A stretch of DNA of 64,000 nt from Saccharopolyspora erythraea NRRL 2338 (GTDB taxonomy: Bacteria; Actinomycetota; Actinomycetes; Mycobacteriales; Pseudonocardiaceae). The stretch spans positions 868,001 through 932,000 of the forward strand of contig NC_009142.1 in NCBI RefSeq assembly GCF_000062885.1, read 5' to 3'. The notes beneath the pieces are model-generated. The model was not told the DNA's origin. It made no database searches and was given only the letters and a program-made list of their open reading frames with translations. Shown one piece after another: positions 28,135 to 33,572 of this stretch. How positions within the stretch are numbered: the stretch's first letter is position 1; each line of letters starts with the position of its first letter. Position numbers and translations under genes: made by a program.

Positions 28135-28181
28135 AACGCGTGTCCCGTTCCCTGCGCTGCTGGGAACGGGACACGCGTTTT
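28135..28181 (+). terminator. Strong terminator after rpfB
   Basis: AACGCGTGTCCCGTTCCC (28135-28152) pairs perfectly over 18 bp with GGGAACGGGACACGCGTT (28162-28179), followed by a short T run. It should isolate rpfB from ksgA. Confidence 0.9.
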
Positions 28182-28211
28182 CCGGTTCCAGGGCGGGTGC
28201 GCCGGGTCGCC

Positions 28212-29237
28212 ATGAGCGCGGGTGCGCGGTCCGGGTACTTTTTCGGTGTGGATGACCAGCGCAGACCCGAAGGGTGGACACCCGGGCAGGGGGCCGACGA
28301 GCAGGAGCTCGCGGCTTCCGGTGATCGTGCCGCCGCGGAACCGGGGACTGCGGAACCGCATCCGGGTGCCGGGACGGCCGGTGCCCGGTTGCTCGGGCCC
28401 GCCGACGTTCGGCGGCTCGCCGGTGAGCTGGGCATCCGGCCGACCAAGAAGCTCGGCCAGAACTTCGTGCACGACCCGAACACGGTGCGCCGCATCGTCG
28501 CTGCGGCGTCGCTGACCGCCGAGGACGTCGTCCTCGAGGTGGGACCGGGCCTCGGATCGCTGACGCTGGCCCTGCTGCCCGTCGCCGGGGCGGTGACGGC
28601 GGTGGAGATCGACCCCGTGCTGGCCGCGAGGCTGGAGCGCACCGCGAGCGAGTACTCCCCGGCGCTGGCCGGCCGGCTGCGCGTGGTGGAGGCCGACGCG
28701 CTGCGCGTGCGGGCCGATGACCTCGGCGACCGCAGGCCCACCGCACTGGTGGCGAACCTGCCCTACAACGTCGCGGTACCCGTGGTCCTGCACCTGCTCG
28801 CCGAGCTGCCGACCCTGCGGCACGGCCTGGTCATGGTGCAGTCGGAGGTCGCCGACCGGATGGCGGCCAGGCCGGGCAACCGGACCTACGGCGTCCCGAG
28901 CGCGAAGGCGGCGTGGTTCGCCGACGTGCGGCGCGCGGGCCCGGTGCCGCGCAACGTCTTCTGGCCGGTGCCCAATGTGGACTCCGGGCTGGTGTCGTTC
29001 ACCCGCGTGGAGCCGCCGTCGGAGGTGGCGCGGGCGGACGTGTTCCGCGTGGTCGACGCGGCTTTCGCCCAGCGGCGCAAGACCCTTCGCGCGGCGCTGT
29101 CGGGATGGGCCGGCTCGGCGGCGCGGGCGGAGCGGCTGCTGCGCGCGGCGGGCGTCGACCCGGCCGCGCGCGGGGAGCAGCTCGAGATCGCGGACTTCGC
29201 CCGGATCGCGGAAGCCGCCGAAGCCGACCCCGAGTAG
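28212..29237 (+). CDS. rsmA: 16S rRNA (adenine-1518/1519-N6)-dimethyltransferase
   Basis: A 341-residue SAM-dependent enzyme (KsgA) that dimethylates two adenines in helix 45 of 16S r[50 protein letters not shown] and VQSEVADRM are the methyltransferase motifs. The N-terminal 60 residues before [11 protein letters not shown] are an unusual low-complexity extension; GTG at 28248 is an alternative start. A terminator separates it from rpfB, so it probably has its own promoter in the 30-100 bp upstream. Confidence 0.93.
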
Positions 29238-29542
29238 GGCGTACCAGCGCTGTTTTGGGCGGCGTGGCAGCGAAAAGGCTCAGGGGTCGCGGGTGGCTGA
29301 GCTGGGAAGGTCGCGCTCTCAGGCGATGGAACCGAAGATCCGGGCGGGGTTGCCGGGCCGGGGTCCGCGTTCGGGTTGAGACCACCCGATCGGCGGCTTG
29401 TCAGCAGTCAGCGTTCAGCTACGCAGGGTCACGTAAACACCTTGGCGGGACTGGAAATTCCCGCTCGTCCGAGGGTGTGATGTATAGAACGATTTCGGTA
29501 AGTGACCACTATCAACTTGCGTCCGGTCCGGCCAGTGGGGTC

Positions 29543-29548
29543 TACTAT
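29543..29548 (+). promoter_or_regulatory. Candidate -10 element of the metNIQ transcript, in a 317-bp gap
   Basis: TACTAT at 29543-29548 ends six bases before the riboswitch begins, so a transcript would start at or just before the aptamer. No convincing -35 at standard spacing is seen (TTGCGT at 29517 is 20 bp away). The rest of the 29238-29554 gap after ksgA shows no gene. Confidence 0.45.
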
Positions 29549-29554
29549 TCGGGA

Positions 29555-29642
29555 AATCCATCCCGAGCGGCCGAGAGACCTGGCTCCGCGACGCCGCAGC
29601 AACCACCCGACGGGCAGGTGCTAACGCCAGGACCGATGGAGT
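29555..29642 (+). ncRNA. SAM-I (S-box) riboswitch upstream of the methionine transporter
   Basis: The aptamer core follows the S-box consensus: GAGCGGCCGAGAGAC, then TGGCTC, GACGCCGCAGCAACC, and GGTGCTAACGCCAGGACC. Stem P1 is TCCATC (29557-29562) paired with GATGGA (29635-29640). It binds S-adenosylmethionine and stabilises P1, which should lower expression when methionine is plentiful. No terminator with a T run follows. Instead the P1 3' strand contains the GGA of a GGAG ribosome binding site for the short ORF at 29647, which points to control of translation initiation. Confidence 0.88.
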
Positions 29643-29646
29643 TGTG

Positions 29647-29799
29647 GTGTCCAAGACTCTGGTACGCAGCCCGCACGCTCGTGCGCTCCCCGCTGGGCGG
29701 GGACGGTCCGGCCGCGGATACCCCAAGTTGCTTTTGACGCAGCGCCGCGTCATCGATCACGGGCGACGGACGACGACTGGCTGTCGTCGCGAGGCGTGA
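29647..29799 (+). CDS. Possible 50-residue ORF controlled by the SAM riboswitch
   Basis: GTG at 29647 follows GGAG (29638-29641) with a five-base spacer and runs 50 codons to TGA at 29797-29799. The product starts MSKTLVRSPHARALPAG and is strongly basic, with no domain I recognise. The ribosome binding site overlaps the 3' strand of riboswitch stem P1. It may be a leader ORF whose translation gates metN, or it may be fortuitous. A C-rich, G-poor stretch follows at 29807-29836. Confidence 0.4.
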   Translation: MSKTLVRSPHARALPAGRGRSGRGYPKLLLTQRRVIDHGRRTTTGCRREA

Positions 29800-29908
29800 C
29801 TTCGTAGTCCCTCTCCCCGACCCCCTCTTTCCTTCCGGCCGCCAGGCCGCGCCGCGCGCTGCGCGGGGCAGGTCCGCGGAGCCGGTGTGAGCTGATGCGG
29901 AGCCGATC

Positions 29909-30928
29909 GTGATCACAGTCGAGAACCTCACAAAGTCGTTCCAGCACAACAAGAGCAACGTCGTCGCCCTGGACGGGGTGTCGATGGAGGTGCCGGCGGG
30001 CGCCGTGTGCGGCGTGGTCGGACCCAGCGGCGCCGGCAAGTCCACCCTGGCCCGTTGCATCGCCCTGCTGGAGAAGCCCGACAGCGGCGCGATCAGGGTC
30101 GACGGCACCGACCTGGTCGCCCTGGACGGCAAGGCCCTGCGCGCCGCGCGCCGCCAGATCGGCGTTGTGCCGCAAGGCGACTCGCTGCTGCGGCAGCGCA
30201 CCGCCGCGGGCAACGTCGCGCTGCCGCTGGAGGCGGCTGGCATGGCCGGGCCGCAGCGCCGCAGCCGCGTCGGCGAGCTGCTGGACCTGGTCGGGCTGAC
30301 CGACAAGGCGTCGGTGTACCCCGACCAGCTCTCCGGCGGGCAGCGCCAGCGCATCGCGGTCGCCCGCGCGCTGGCCGCCAAGCCCTCCGTGCTGCTGGCC
30401 GACGAGCCGACCTCCGCGCTGGACCCGGGCACCACCGACTCGGTGCTGACGGTCCTGGACCGCGCCCGCTCCGAGCTGGGCGTCACCGTCCTGGTGGTCA
30501 CCCACGACATGGCCGTGGTGCGCCGGATCGCCGACGACGTCGCCGTGCTGGAGCAGGGCCGCGTGGTCGAGCACGGCAAGGTGCTCGACCTGGTCGCCGA
30601 GCCCGGCAGCCGGATCGGCGAGACGCTGCTGCCCGAGACCGGCCAGGCCGACCTGCTCAAGCCGTCGAAGAACGGCCACGACGTGGTCGCCGAGGTGGTC
30701 CTGGTCGGGTTCGCCGCCGTGGGCGCCCTGCTGCCCGAGGCCTCCAGCCGGTTCGGCGTCGAGCTGTCCATCCTGGGCGGCGGCCTGACCAGGCTCGGTG
30801 AGACGCCGGTGGCCAAGTTCAAGGTCGGCCTCAGCGGTGAGCGCGCGGAGTCGGCGCTGAAGTGGATGGTCGAGCGTGATGCGCACGTGCGTCGTGCGCC
30901 GGTTTGTGTTGACGGAGCTGCTGCGTGA
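29909..30928 (+). CDS. metN: Methionine ABC transporter ATP-binding protein
   Basis: A 339-residue ATPase of the MetNIQ importer. Walker A is GPSGAGKST at 38-46, the signature is LSGGQRQRIAVA, Walker B is VLLADEPTSALD, and the switch is VTHDMAVV. The C-terminal NIL domain (about 260-335; KFKVGLSGERAESALKWMVERD) binds methionine and inhibits transport in the family. The GTG start has GGAG upstream. Its stop overlaps the metI GTG by four bases. The SAM riboswitch upstream supports methionine as substrate. Confidence 0.95.
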   Translation: MITVENLTKSFQHNKSNVVALDGVSMEVPAGAVCGVVGPSGAGKSTLARCIALLEKPDSGAIRVDGTDLVALDGKALRAARRQIGVVPQGDSLLRQRTAAGNVALPLEAAGMAGPQRRSRVGELLDLVGLTDKASVYPDQLSGGQRQRIAVARALAAKPSVLLADEPTSALDPGTTDSVLTVLDRARSELGVTVLVVTHDMAVVRRIADDVAVLEQGRVVEHGKVLDLVAEPGSRIGETLLPETGQADLLKPSKNGHDVVAEVVLVGFAAVGALLPEASSRFGVELSILGGGLTRLGETPVAKFKVGLSGERAESALKWMVERDAHVRRAPVCVDGAAA

Positions 30929-31611
30929 GTGATGCGACCCCCTGGCCGGAGGTCCTGGAACTACTCGGGGAGGCGACTGGCGAAACCCTCTACATGGTGC
31001 TGGTCTCCACCCTGCTCGCGGTGGTCGGAGGACTGCCGCTCGGAGTGCTGCTGCACCTGGCATCGCCCACCGGGCTGAGCCCGAGACCCGTGCTCTACCG
31101 CGTGCTGGGCGTGGTCGTGGACGTGGTTCGCTCGGTGCCGTTCGTGGTGCTGCTGGTCGTGCTCGCCTCGTTCACCCGGCTGCTGATCGGCACCTCGATC
31201 GGCAGCACCGCGGTGATCGTCCCGCTGACGATCGGCGCCGTGCCGTTCTTCGCCCGGCTGACCCAGAACGCGATCCGCGAGGTGAGCTTCACCGTCGTGG
31301 AGGCCGCGATCACCACCGGGTCGAGCAGGCTGCGCATCGTGTGGACGGTGCTGCTCGGCGAGGCGCGGGCGGCGCTGGTCGGCGCGGTCGGCGTCACGGC
31401 GGTGGCGCTGATCGGCTACGCGGCGATGGCAGGCGCCATCGGCGGCGGCGGCCTGGGCACCACCGCCATCCAGGACGGCTATCAGGGCTACGACGACCGG
31501 ATCCTGTACGGCTCCGTGGTCGTCCTCGGCGTGCTCGCCTTCGCGATGCAGCTGATCACCGACATCGCGGCGAAGGTCGTCGACCGGCGCCGTTCCGCGA
31601 ACCTCTCGTGA
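30925..31611 (+). CDS. metI: Methionine ABC transporter permease
   Basis: A 228-residue inner-membrane subunit with five predicted helices. The EAA loop contacting MetN is visible around VVEAAITTGSSRLRIVWTVL. It forms the methionine channel and is coupled to metN by a GTGA overlap. The 64 bp to metQ contain its ribosome binding site. Confidence 0.94.
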   Translation: MSDATPWPEVLELLGEATGETLYMVLVSTLLAVVGGLPLGVLLHLASPTGLSPRPVLYRVLGVVVDVVRSVPFVVLLVVLASFTRLLIGTSIGSTAVIVPLTIGAVPFFARLTQNAIREVSFTVVEAAITTGSSRLRIVWTVLLGEARAALVGAVGVTAVALIGYAAMAGAIGGGGLGTTAIQDGYQGYDDRILYGSVVVLGVLAFAMQLITDIAAKVVDRRRSANLS

Positions 31612-31675: not shown

Positions 31676-32482
31676 ATGCGTGTTCGTCTTGCCGCCGTGG
31701 TGGCGGTGTCCGCCTTCGCGCTGGCCGCGTGCGGGGGATCCAACGCCGCGGAGGACCCGAACGCCCCGATCTCGGTCGCGGTGAGCCCGCAGCCGCACGG
31801 GGAGATCCTGGAGTACGTCGACCGGGAGCTGGCCCCCAAGGCCGGGATCGACCTGGAGATCGAGAAGTTCGACGACTACAACCGCCCGAACGAGGCGGTT
31901 GCCAACGGCGAGATCGACGCCAACTACTTCCAGCACATCCCGTACCTGGACCAGTACAAGTCCGAGCGCGGCGGTGACCTGGTGTGGGTGGGGCCGGTGC
32001 ACCTGGAGCCGCTGGCGGTCTACTCCAAGCAGTTCAAGTCGGTGCAGGAGCTGCCCGCCGGCGCCACCGTCACGCTGTCCAACGACCCGGCCAACCAGTT
32101 CCGCGGCCTGAAGCTGCTGGAGACCAACGGCCTGGTCAAGCTCAAGCCGGAGGCGGCCGTGGGCACCCGGCTGGACGCGGCCATCGCGGAGAACCCGAAG
32201 AACATCCAGTTCAAGGACCTCTCGCCGGACCAGCTCCCGCGCTCGGTCGACGACGCCGCGGCCGCGGTGGTCAACGGCAACTACGCGCTCAAGGCCAACC
32301 TGCAGAACCCGATCGCGGTCGAGAGCGCGCAGGACAACCCGTACGCCAACGGCCTGGTGACCAGCTCGAAGCTGGTGCAGGACCCGCGGATCAAGAAGCT
32401 GGCGGAGATCCTGCGCTCGCCCGAGGTCAAGGACCACATCAACCGCACCTACGGCGGCGTGGGCGTGGTCCCCGCCTCCTGA
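31676..32482 (+). CDS. metQ: Methionine-binding lipoprotein (NlpA family)
   Basis: A 268-residue extracytoplasmic solute-binding lipoprotein. The signal peptide ends at the lipobox LAAC (residues 17-20), followed by a GGSNAAED linker. [16 protein letters not shown] opens the NlpA fold, and NANYFQH-type and [13 protein letters not shown] segments are conserved. A good AAAGGA ribosome binding site precedes ATG 31676. It delivers methionine to MetNI. Confidence 0.95.
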
Positions 32483-32606: not shown

Positions 32607-33572
32607 GTGCTCTCCGTGGTACCCACACCCATCACCGTCCGAGTCCCGGCCAAGGTGAACCTGCACCTGTCGGTCGGCGACACCCGCGAGGACGGCTACC
32701 ACGAGCTGGTCACGGTCTTCCAGGCGCTGTCGATGACCGACGAGGTCACCGTGCACATCGCCGACGAGCCCGGCATCGAGGTGCGCGGCGAGGGCGCCGA
32801 CTCGGTGCCCACCGGCCCCAGCAACCTCGCGTGGAAGGCCGTGCGGGCACTTGCCGAGCGCTGCGGCCGCGACCCTGACGAACCGGGGGTGCGGGTCTCG
32901 ATCAACAAGGGCATCCCGGTCGCCGGCGGCATGGCCGGTGGCAGCGCGGACGCGGCGGCGGCGCTGCTGGCGCTGAACCACCTGTGGCGGCTGGAGATGG
33001 GGCGCGACGAGCTCGCCGGGATCGCCGCGGACATCGGCAGCGACGTCCCGTTCGCCCTCCAGGGCGGTACCGCGCTGGGCACCGGGCGCGGTGAGCAGCT
33101 CATCCCGGTGCTGGCCCGGCACACCTTCCACTGGGTGATCGCGCTGGACCGGCGCGGCCTGGAGACGCCCGGGGTGTTCAGCGAGCTGGACCGGCTGCGC
33201 GAGGAGTCCCGGCCCAACCGGGTGGGCGAGGTGGAGCCGGTGCTGGAGGCGCTGGCCTCCGGCGATCCCAGGCAGCTCGCGCTGCTGCTCGGCAACGACC
33301 TGCAGGCGGCGGCGGTATCGCTGCGGCCGGGCCTGCGCCGGACCCTGCGCGCGGGTGTGCAGGCGGGCGCCCTCGCGGGCATCGTGTCCGGCTCGGGGCC
33401 CACCTGCGCCTTCCTGTGCACCGACGCGGACGCGGCGGTGCGCGTGGCGGCGGAGCTCTCCGGCGCGGGCGTCTGCCGCACGGTCCGCGTCGCCCAGGGC
33501 CCGGTCCCCGGCGCCCGCCTGGTCACCGACGACCGAGCCGACCGCCCGACCCCGCCTCAGGTACATGCCTGA
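32607..33572 (+). CDS. ispE: 4-diphosphocytidyl-2-C-methyl-D-erythritol kinase
   Basis: A 321-residue GHMP kinase of the non-mevalonate isoprenoid pathway, phosphorylating CDP-methylerythritol. [20 protein letters not shown] is the substrate and catalytic N-terminal motif. [17 protein letters not shown] is the ATP-binding glycine loop, and GSGPTCAFL is motif 3. The GTG start is weakly supported; GTG 32616 is possible. In mycobacteria it directly follows ksgA; here metNIQ lies between. Confidence 0.94.

Follow-up and report, generated by a model that had tools for sequence, protein, structure and literature searches.

A SAM-I riboswitch ahead of metNIQ-like genes in Pseudonocardiaceae is predicted to control a conserved cysteine-type leader peptide

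A SAM-I (S-box) riboswitch located ahead of a metNIQ-like operon in Saccharopolyspora erythraea NRRL 2338 carries the Shine-Dalgarno (SD) sequence of a 50-codon ORF within its P1 helix, and sequence comparison argues that this short ORF is more than a product of chance, since the place of its start codon, its frame, its C-terminal end and a single codon are kept across Pseudonocardiaceae. It is rather likely that two regulators act in series ahead of metNIQ, the SAM-I aptamer being followed by a cysteine-type leader peptide. The initial annotation of the window (the whole stretch of 64,000 nucleotides analysed here, positions 868,001 to 932,000 of contig NC_009142.1) had proposed that the riboswitch gates this ORF rather than metN directly; the observation is confirmed, and its interpretation is supported by the comparisons presented below. 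Beyond that proposal, the ORF appears to encode a leader of the sulfur/cysteine type with an invariant TGT codon avoided by metN genes, and it persists at loci that lack the riboswitch. The features of the locus are as follows (positions in the window).

29555..29642, + strand: SAM-I (S-box) riboswitch aptamer (cmscan RF00162, 60.3 bits, gathering score 44.4)
29554..29562, + strand: 5′ strand of P1, AAATCCATC, 8/9 positions complementary to 29635-29643
29635..29643, + strand: 3′ strand of P1, GATGGAGTT, containing the leader SD (from sequence and complementarity)
29638..29641, + strand: SD GGAG of the leader ORF, five bases (TTGTG) ahead of the GTG at 29647
29647..29799, + strand: leader peptide ORF, 50 sense codons plus TGA (29797-29799), with GTG start at 29647-29649
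29734..29784, + strand: conserved 17-codon block LTQRRVIDHGRRTTTGC (profile A2 match 29728-29790, E 2.4e-11, with the window's own leader motif among the profile rows)
29782..29784, + strand: candidate control codon for Cys, invariably TGT in three overlapping sets of loci (67/67, 23/23 and 75/75)
29800..29859, + strand: C-rich, G-poor tract 3′ of the leader stop, candidate Rho-binding region (from composition)
29899..29902, + strand: SD GGAG of the metN-like gene (from sequence)
29909..30928, + strand: metN-like ABC transporter ATPase, GTG start (NCBIfam TIGR02314, 282.5 bits, cutoff 499.7)
30925..31611, + strand: metI-like permease (NCBIfam NF008049, 184.5 bits, cutoff 212)
31676..32482, + strand: metQ-like lipoprotein (NF008285, 175.2 bits, cutoff 374; TIGR00363, 159.2 bits, cutoff 228.85)

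MetN, MetI and MetQ are used as best-match names only, because all scores lie below the curated NCBIfam cutoffs. The three genes are flanked by rsmA/ksgA (28140-29237, TIGR00755 above cutoff) and by an ORF at 32607-33572 which, judged by eye, resembles ispE. The geometry described in the initial annotation was borne out by the sequence: GATGGA at 29635-29640 in the 3′ strand of P1 overlaps the GGAG, the GTG of the 50-codon ORF follows five bases later, and the metN-like GTG at 29909 lies 267 nt past the end of the aptamer. Its description of this GGAG as the only ribosome binding site nearby is correct for the surroundings of the aptamer and fails further on, because the metN-like gene has a GGAG of its own, and TGGAG or CGGAG is retained ahead of metN among the relatives listed. 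An alternative in-frame GTG at 29644 would extend the leader ORF to 51 codons, as given in a program-made ORF list; the start at 29647 is preferred because the start codon lies exactly five bases past GGAG in all 30 loci of the first comparison sample described below. A promoter-like stretch, ATCAACTTGCG ... TCTACT[AG]T, was observed at 29513-29550, just 5′ of P1, and in the same place in at least nine relatives; transcription from it may start a few bases 5′ of the P1 5′ strand.

Four partly overlapping sets of loci were compared. Sample (a) comprised 30 loci, among them that of the window itself, selected because their DNA resembles the leader and metN taken together; sample (b) comprised 40 further Pseudonocardiaceae loci; sample (c) came from a search of named species genomes with the MetN protein only, giving 77 loci, 75 from Pseudonocardiaceae and two from outside; and a further 20 loci were chosen by the leader profile. 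The frame leads into LTQRR[VF][IV]D[HL]G[RL]RTTx[AG]C throughout sample (a) (30/30), with lengths of 42-56 codons. SAM-I exceeded the gathering score at 37 of the 40 loci of sample (b), all 37 carrying the leader ORF (that of L064 was overlooked by the initial pattern and recognised by eye), while L060, L065 and L067 have the leader peptide without SAM-I. For the 28 sample (b) loci that match the query in the metN part only (L047-L074), the corresponding figures are 28/28 for the leader and 25/28 for SAM-I. Selection by the MetN protein gave the same picture: a leader pattern derived from the earlier loci, applied to the 75 Pseudonocardiaceae loci of sample (c), found motif and frame in 75/75, and SAM-I stands in the same place as in the window in 74/75, with Pseudonocardia nigra (L245) as the sole exception, whereas SAM-I is absent at both loci outside the family (Desulfosoma and Alkalihalobacterium). 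The conserved short ORF with its SD in P1, as initially proposed, is thus retained in loci selected by MetN.

The spacing from GGAG to the leader start is 5-7 nt in 72 of 74 named loci and 2 nt in the other two, and the start codons of these 74 are GTG (37), ATG (30) and TTG (7). Leader length ranges from 22 to 89 codons, with conservation concentrated in a C-terminal block; the 89-codon leaders of L055 and L056 (genus g37) show an AQ[SL]xxAQL-like repeat in the variable N-terminal half, with the frame kept. A leader profile, itself built from Pseudonocardiaceae members, matches in 321/390 genomes and 44/46 genera of this family at E ≤ 0.001. SAM-I accompanies 19 of the 20 profile-chosen loci, the exception being L160, which belongs to genus g31 like L060, L065 and L067. 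Five loci therefore keep the leader without SAM-I (L060, L065, L067, L160 and L245), and because the peptide module is separable in this way, an attenuator that came first may have gained the riboswitch or lost it. At the four g31 loci the leader ORF seemingly starts, by eye, right after a promoter-like stretch, i.e. it is leaderless.

That the ORF is coding follows from a test on the gap-free 17-codon block from 67 loci (56 distinct DNA blocks). Third codon positions vary most (entropy 1.28 bits, compared to 0.48 and 0.32), and 60.0% of pairwise codon differences are synonymous. The share drops to 8% and 6.5% when the block is read in the two alternative frames, and 200 column permutations gave a mean of 19.1% and a maximum of 36.7%. 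R4, D8, R12 and C17 are invariant in 67/67 and L1, T2, R5 and R11 nearly so, giving the C-terminal consensus LTxRRVxDxxRRTxx[AG]C in a short, Arg-rich ORF. The synonymous excess, the third-position variation and the invariant residues lead us to conclude that selection acts on a peptide. The lack of a conserved reading frame in relatives, which the initial annotation had named as grounds for giving up its proposal, was looked for and the opposite was found, the frame being kept in 75/75 loci and codon differences being mostly synonymous (60% in the block from 67 loci).

The SD of the leader lies within P1, as is the case for the controlled ORF of a translational SAM-I riboswitch, and when P1 duplexes were predicted for the 42 distinct strand pairs found in 67 loci, a mean of 3.0 of its four GGAG bases was paired. 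Closure of P1 is taken from the Rfam fold, because, across the 67 loci examined, the core of the helix is identical and its outer pairs show no covariation, their score being equalled or bettered in 1367 of 5000 permutations; P1 is absent from the ligand-free minimum-energy fold, which is no better than shuffles (z 0.48). The other SAM-I element of the S. erythraea genome (G000:C1:1588966-1589093) immediately precedes threonine synthase; the 3′ end of its P1 carries an SD, and no leader peptide is present. The same arrangement is general among the 30 best-scoring class-level SAM-I loci (Actinomycetes): GATGAG is present at the P1 3′ end in 30/30, threonine synthase follows in 30/30 (tblastn with the own-genome protein; that of L084 matched from residue 121 only, its upstream stretch being masked), and the leader motif was found in 0/30. 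Since all of these loci share GATGAG, an SD on the 3′ strand of P1 is a common platform, which acts on a structural gene at threonine synthase but serves a leader peptide at metN. SAM gating of the leader ORF through P1 is very probable and well supported by sequence, with the aptamer presumed to bind SAM and translation of the leader to depend on it.

As for the kind of peptide, the leader resembles members of NF042934, the NCBIfam cis_reg_atten leader-peptide model (curated cutoff 27 bits). This model gives seven matches in the S. erythraea genome at E ≤ 0.001 (L075-L081), three of them above cutoff, and the genes behind them include a nitrite/sulfite-reductase-like gene and dimethylsulfone monooxygenase SfnG, both called from partial proteins that score below full-length cutoffs. 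By eye, the metN leader shares with these leaders a 17-residue spacing ending in Cys, a skeleton that is a description drawn from the seven own-genome matches; it differs in having its SD inside the P1 of SAM-I, V rather than H at position 6 and usually R at 12. With 150 of 296 first-look candidates scored, the 21 NF042934 matches of the S. erythraea genome at E ≤ 10 did not include the window leader; three metN leaders run through hmmscan matched nothing in Pfam or NCBIfam at the same threshold, and the best metN leader seen against NF042934 reached 15.6 bits (in genome G212), below the 27-bit cutoff. Conversely, when the metN-leader profile was run against the seven own-genome leaders, the best score was 7.4 bits, equalled by 2 of 899 shuffles, and the scores of the remaining six were reached by 29 to 228 of 899. 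Intermediates such as LTRRRHIDHGRRTSTGC do occur, among the second leader copies of the family described below.

Profile A2, built from 34 metN leaders, has matches at E ≤ 0.01 in 86 of the 296 genomes of the class, and many of these matches are partial. Of 30 loci fetched, 22 were looked at; eight of these precede a cysteine-synthase-like gene (one checked against NCBIfam) and six a gene named rhodanese-like by eye (one was scanned, without an NCBIfam match), in both cases in small low-GC genomes. Small low-GC loci with a FTRRRVIDFGRACTCAC-type motif are L113, L116-L120, L122-L124, L127, L128, L130, L131 and L134. Second leader copies were found in other Pseudonocardiaceae genera (L168, L169, L171, L172 and L173), where they precede DctA/GltP-type symporters (four loci, one scanned), for which cystine uptake is our guess, or O-acetylhomoserine sulfhydrylase. 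On these sequence relationships, we place the metN leader, as a separate branch, with the sulfur/cysteine leader peptides of actinobacteria, although it falls formally outside NF042934.

The codon for C17 is TGT in 67/67, 23/23 and 75/75 loci of overlapping sets. Over the first 900 nt of their metN ORFs, the 75 named loci encode Cys by TGC 159 times and by TGT never, and the earlier locus set gave TGC 106 and TGT 1. A second Cys of metN leaders, at block position 10, is TGC in 14 cases and TGT in two, and the codons flanking C17 vary freely. As TGT is fixed while its neighbours and position 10 differ, it is the codon itself that is conserved, in addition to the residue and not as part of a longer RNA motif, as one expects where ribosome speed matters. 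Related leaders in high-GC genomes also have TGT (6/7 in the S. erythraea genome, 5/5 elsewhere). The matching codon in small low-GC genomes is TGC in 11/11, with a local use of 26 TGC to 31 TGT. A general rule by which the less used of the two Cys codons always serves for control was considered and set aside, as it fits the high-GC genomes but is weak in the low-GC ones, given TGC in 11/11 with near-even use; codon counts of high-GC ORFs, which contain wrong-frame ORFs, were left out. The mycobacterial cysteine attenuators that Canestrari reportedly described in 2020 are said to have several successive Cys codons adjoining the stop and a leaderless start. The window peptide has no such run, containing one Cys three to four codons ahead of the stop region, and its ORF starts with an SD; many metN leaders likewise have one or two Cys and no run, with CAC, ACC or CACC in some relatives.

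It is likely that the leader senses through this codon or through the peptide it encodes. One alternative is that the nascent chain arrests its own ribosome via the conserved residues and senses a small molecule, with SAM-I gating and output unchanged. The invariance of R4, D8 and R12 and the near invariance of L1, T2, R5 and R11, which exceed what a pure codon sensor needs, speak for such an arrest, but the synonymous fixation of the Cys codon at TGT among freely varying adjacent codons favours decoding at that site, and we regard arrest by itself as unlikely; the two may act together.

Downstream of the leader, the 60 nt at 29800-29859 have a C-G of 0.32 and a pyrimidine content of 0.73, values that are reached jointly by 0.008% of the 60-mers of the window (both strands). 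The composition is shared by relatives: among 48 distinct loci (67 minus 19, of which four had no pattern-found metN start and the rest were >80% alike), the 60 nt past the leader stop have C-G ≥ 0.10 in 44/48 and pyrimidine ≥ 0.60 in 40/48, compared to 4/29 and 2/29 past other gene stops of the window and to 3/22 and 0/22 at -110 to -50 of its gene starts, these controls coming from this window alone (genes by a simple GC3 rule) and the leaders from many genomes. A search of 29230-29960 revealed no terminator-like site. The locus has neither an intrinsic terminator 3′ of the aptamer, as in a transcription-terminating S-box, nor the terminator and antiterminator hairpins of a classical trp-type attenuator. 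In the interval from the leader stop to metN, hairpins occur repeatedly with sequences that differ, and no strong conserved fold was detected (mean z -0.57, 48 distinct loci). Two candidate pairings were also examined and rejected: leader GATCACG with CGTGATC at the metN start is perfect in the window, most relatives having GACCAC and others GACCAG, and aptamer GGCTCC with metN GGAGCC is not retained in L017 and L024. The C-rich tract would suit Rho acting on ribosome-free RNA, and we give Rho about an even chance of being the last step.

Combined with the comparisons above, a working scheme can be formulated. With SAM bound, P1 would close and sequester the leader GGAG, blocking ribosome entry; when SAM is absent, P1 would open and ribosomes would load onto the leader. 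If Cys-tRNA is short, the ribosome would be slowed at UGU, or held by the nascent chain, and would cover the RNA just downstream, and we infer that such a ribosome, stalled near the leader stop, shields the C-rich tract. If the leader is untranslated (SAM high) or the ribosome has gone (Cys plentiful), Rho would load at the C-rich tract and transcription would end before metN, so that metNIQ would be made, from its own SD, when SAM and Cys are both low. The sign of the effect, leader translation helping metN, is deduced from the expectation that high SAM should switch methionine uptake off. Because the leader is a candidate sensor of the cysteine type, the relay is probably a two-input gate. 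The full serial version, in which the sole direct target of SAM-I is a cysteine sensor and UGU in an arrest-prone peptide decides metNIQ transcription, is put forward tentatively, at somewhat less than even odds.

In another reading, ribosomes finishing the leader would go on to the metN start, by termination-reinitiation or from a standby position, and SAM would block them via P1. According to the cited passages, the gene downstream of the B12-controlled uORF, ppe2, depends on uORF translation mainly in this way (PMC11260477), and the SD of a SAM-II metA leader serves a start 74 nt downstream (PMC9373788). At metN, however, leader stop and metN start are 75-147 nt apart in the 75 named loci and 62-145 nt apart in a second count, and never overlap, and metN has a good SD of its own, making this route quite improbable. 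Direct action of the riboswitch on metN, through a terminator or a hidden metN SD and with the leader as a bystander, is very unlikely: stretches of 7 and 8 nt in the leader and aptamer of the window have the potential to base-pair with the start and SD of metN, but these pairings are not retained in relatives, neither a terminator-like site nor a strong conserved fold in the interval separating the leader from metN (mean z -0.57) was found, and the leader is under codon-level selection. A trans-acting small protein, acting for example on the transporter and synthesised under SAM control along with the operon, might explain the conservation of the peptide, and the cited part of a study on M-box-gated Rv1805A suggests that this small protein acts in trans (PMC12810186), but conservation centred on the C-terminal block, lengths of 22 to 89 codons and above all the fixed synonymous codon, which indicates a role in cis, render it extremely unlikely.

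The reading of SAM-I and a cysteine-type leader in series has partial precedents. Relays from a riboswitch to an upstream ORF have been published for B12 and M-box elements, and none is described for SAM-I among the open-licence matches listed, in agreement with the initial remark that such a relay is not usually described for S-box elements. In the excerpts cited, the M-box of M. tuberculosis controls the conserved uORF rv1805A upstream of pe20 with Rho-dependent termination, and its leader has a pyrimidine-rich region that is a possible Rho site (PMC12810186). The metN locus resembles it in having a riboswitch on a conserved small ORF ahead of an operon and a pyrimidine-rich region, but the M-box responds to Mg2+ rather than being a SAM-I element, and Rv1805A, as far as these excerpts describe it, is not a cysteine-type leader peptide. 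The B12 OFF riboswitch of M. tuberculosis masks the SD of uPPE2, on which the downstream gene depends, and the passages cited use the term relay (PMC11260477). Masking of the SD of a conserved upstream ORF is likewise found at metN, by sequence and comparison only; the riboswitch class differs, and the uPPE2 stop and the downstream start overlap (AUGA) for termination-reinitiation, in contrast to the gap of 75-147 nt at metN.

Candidate mycobacterial cys leader peptides are followed by a poly-pyrimidine stretch, proposed as a Rho site in a prediction that its authors rated rather weak (Seliverstov et al. 2005, PMC1262725). These leaders, on the cited parts of that work, and those of NF042934 share with the metN leaders the spacing of R4, [IV]7, D8, R11 and C17, the position before sulfur genes and the lack of a conserved terminator, whereas the 2005 peptides have Cys-codon runs, unlike the metN leaders (PMC1262725). 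The metNIQ genes of S. lividans have a short Cys/Met leader, metL, which is reported as leaderless and lacks a typical Rho-independent terminator, and the passages cited assign the RF00162 element of this species to threonine biosynthesis only (PMC8079986). The likeness to our locus extends, on those passages, to a short leader peptide ahead of metNIQ and to the absence of a typical Rho-independent terminator; against the metN-leader profile, metL reaches a score of -13.1 bits.

If the proposed arrangement is true, the direct output of this S-box would be a sensor peptide and not a metabolic gene, placing two RNA sulfur sensors in series. It would offer a natural test case of a riboswitch that licenses an attenuator reading ribosome position, with a sharp prediction at the codon level (UGU, not UGC), and it cautions that, in Actinomycetes, a riboswitch annotated as lying upstream of some gene may in truth act on an intervening ORF that the annotation has missed. 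For the organism, a serial two-input gate would mean that methionine import needs both low SAM and low cysteine, and such serial sulfur sensing would have been retained across a large family of soil actinomycetes.
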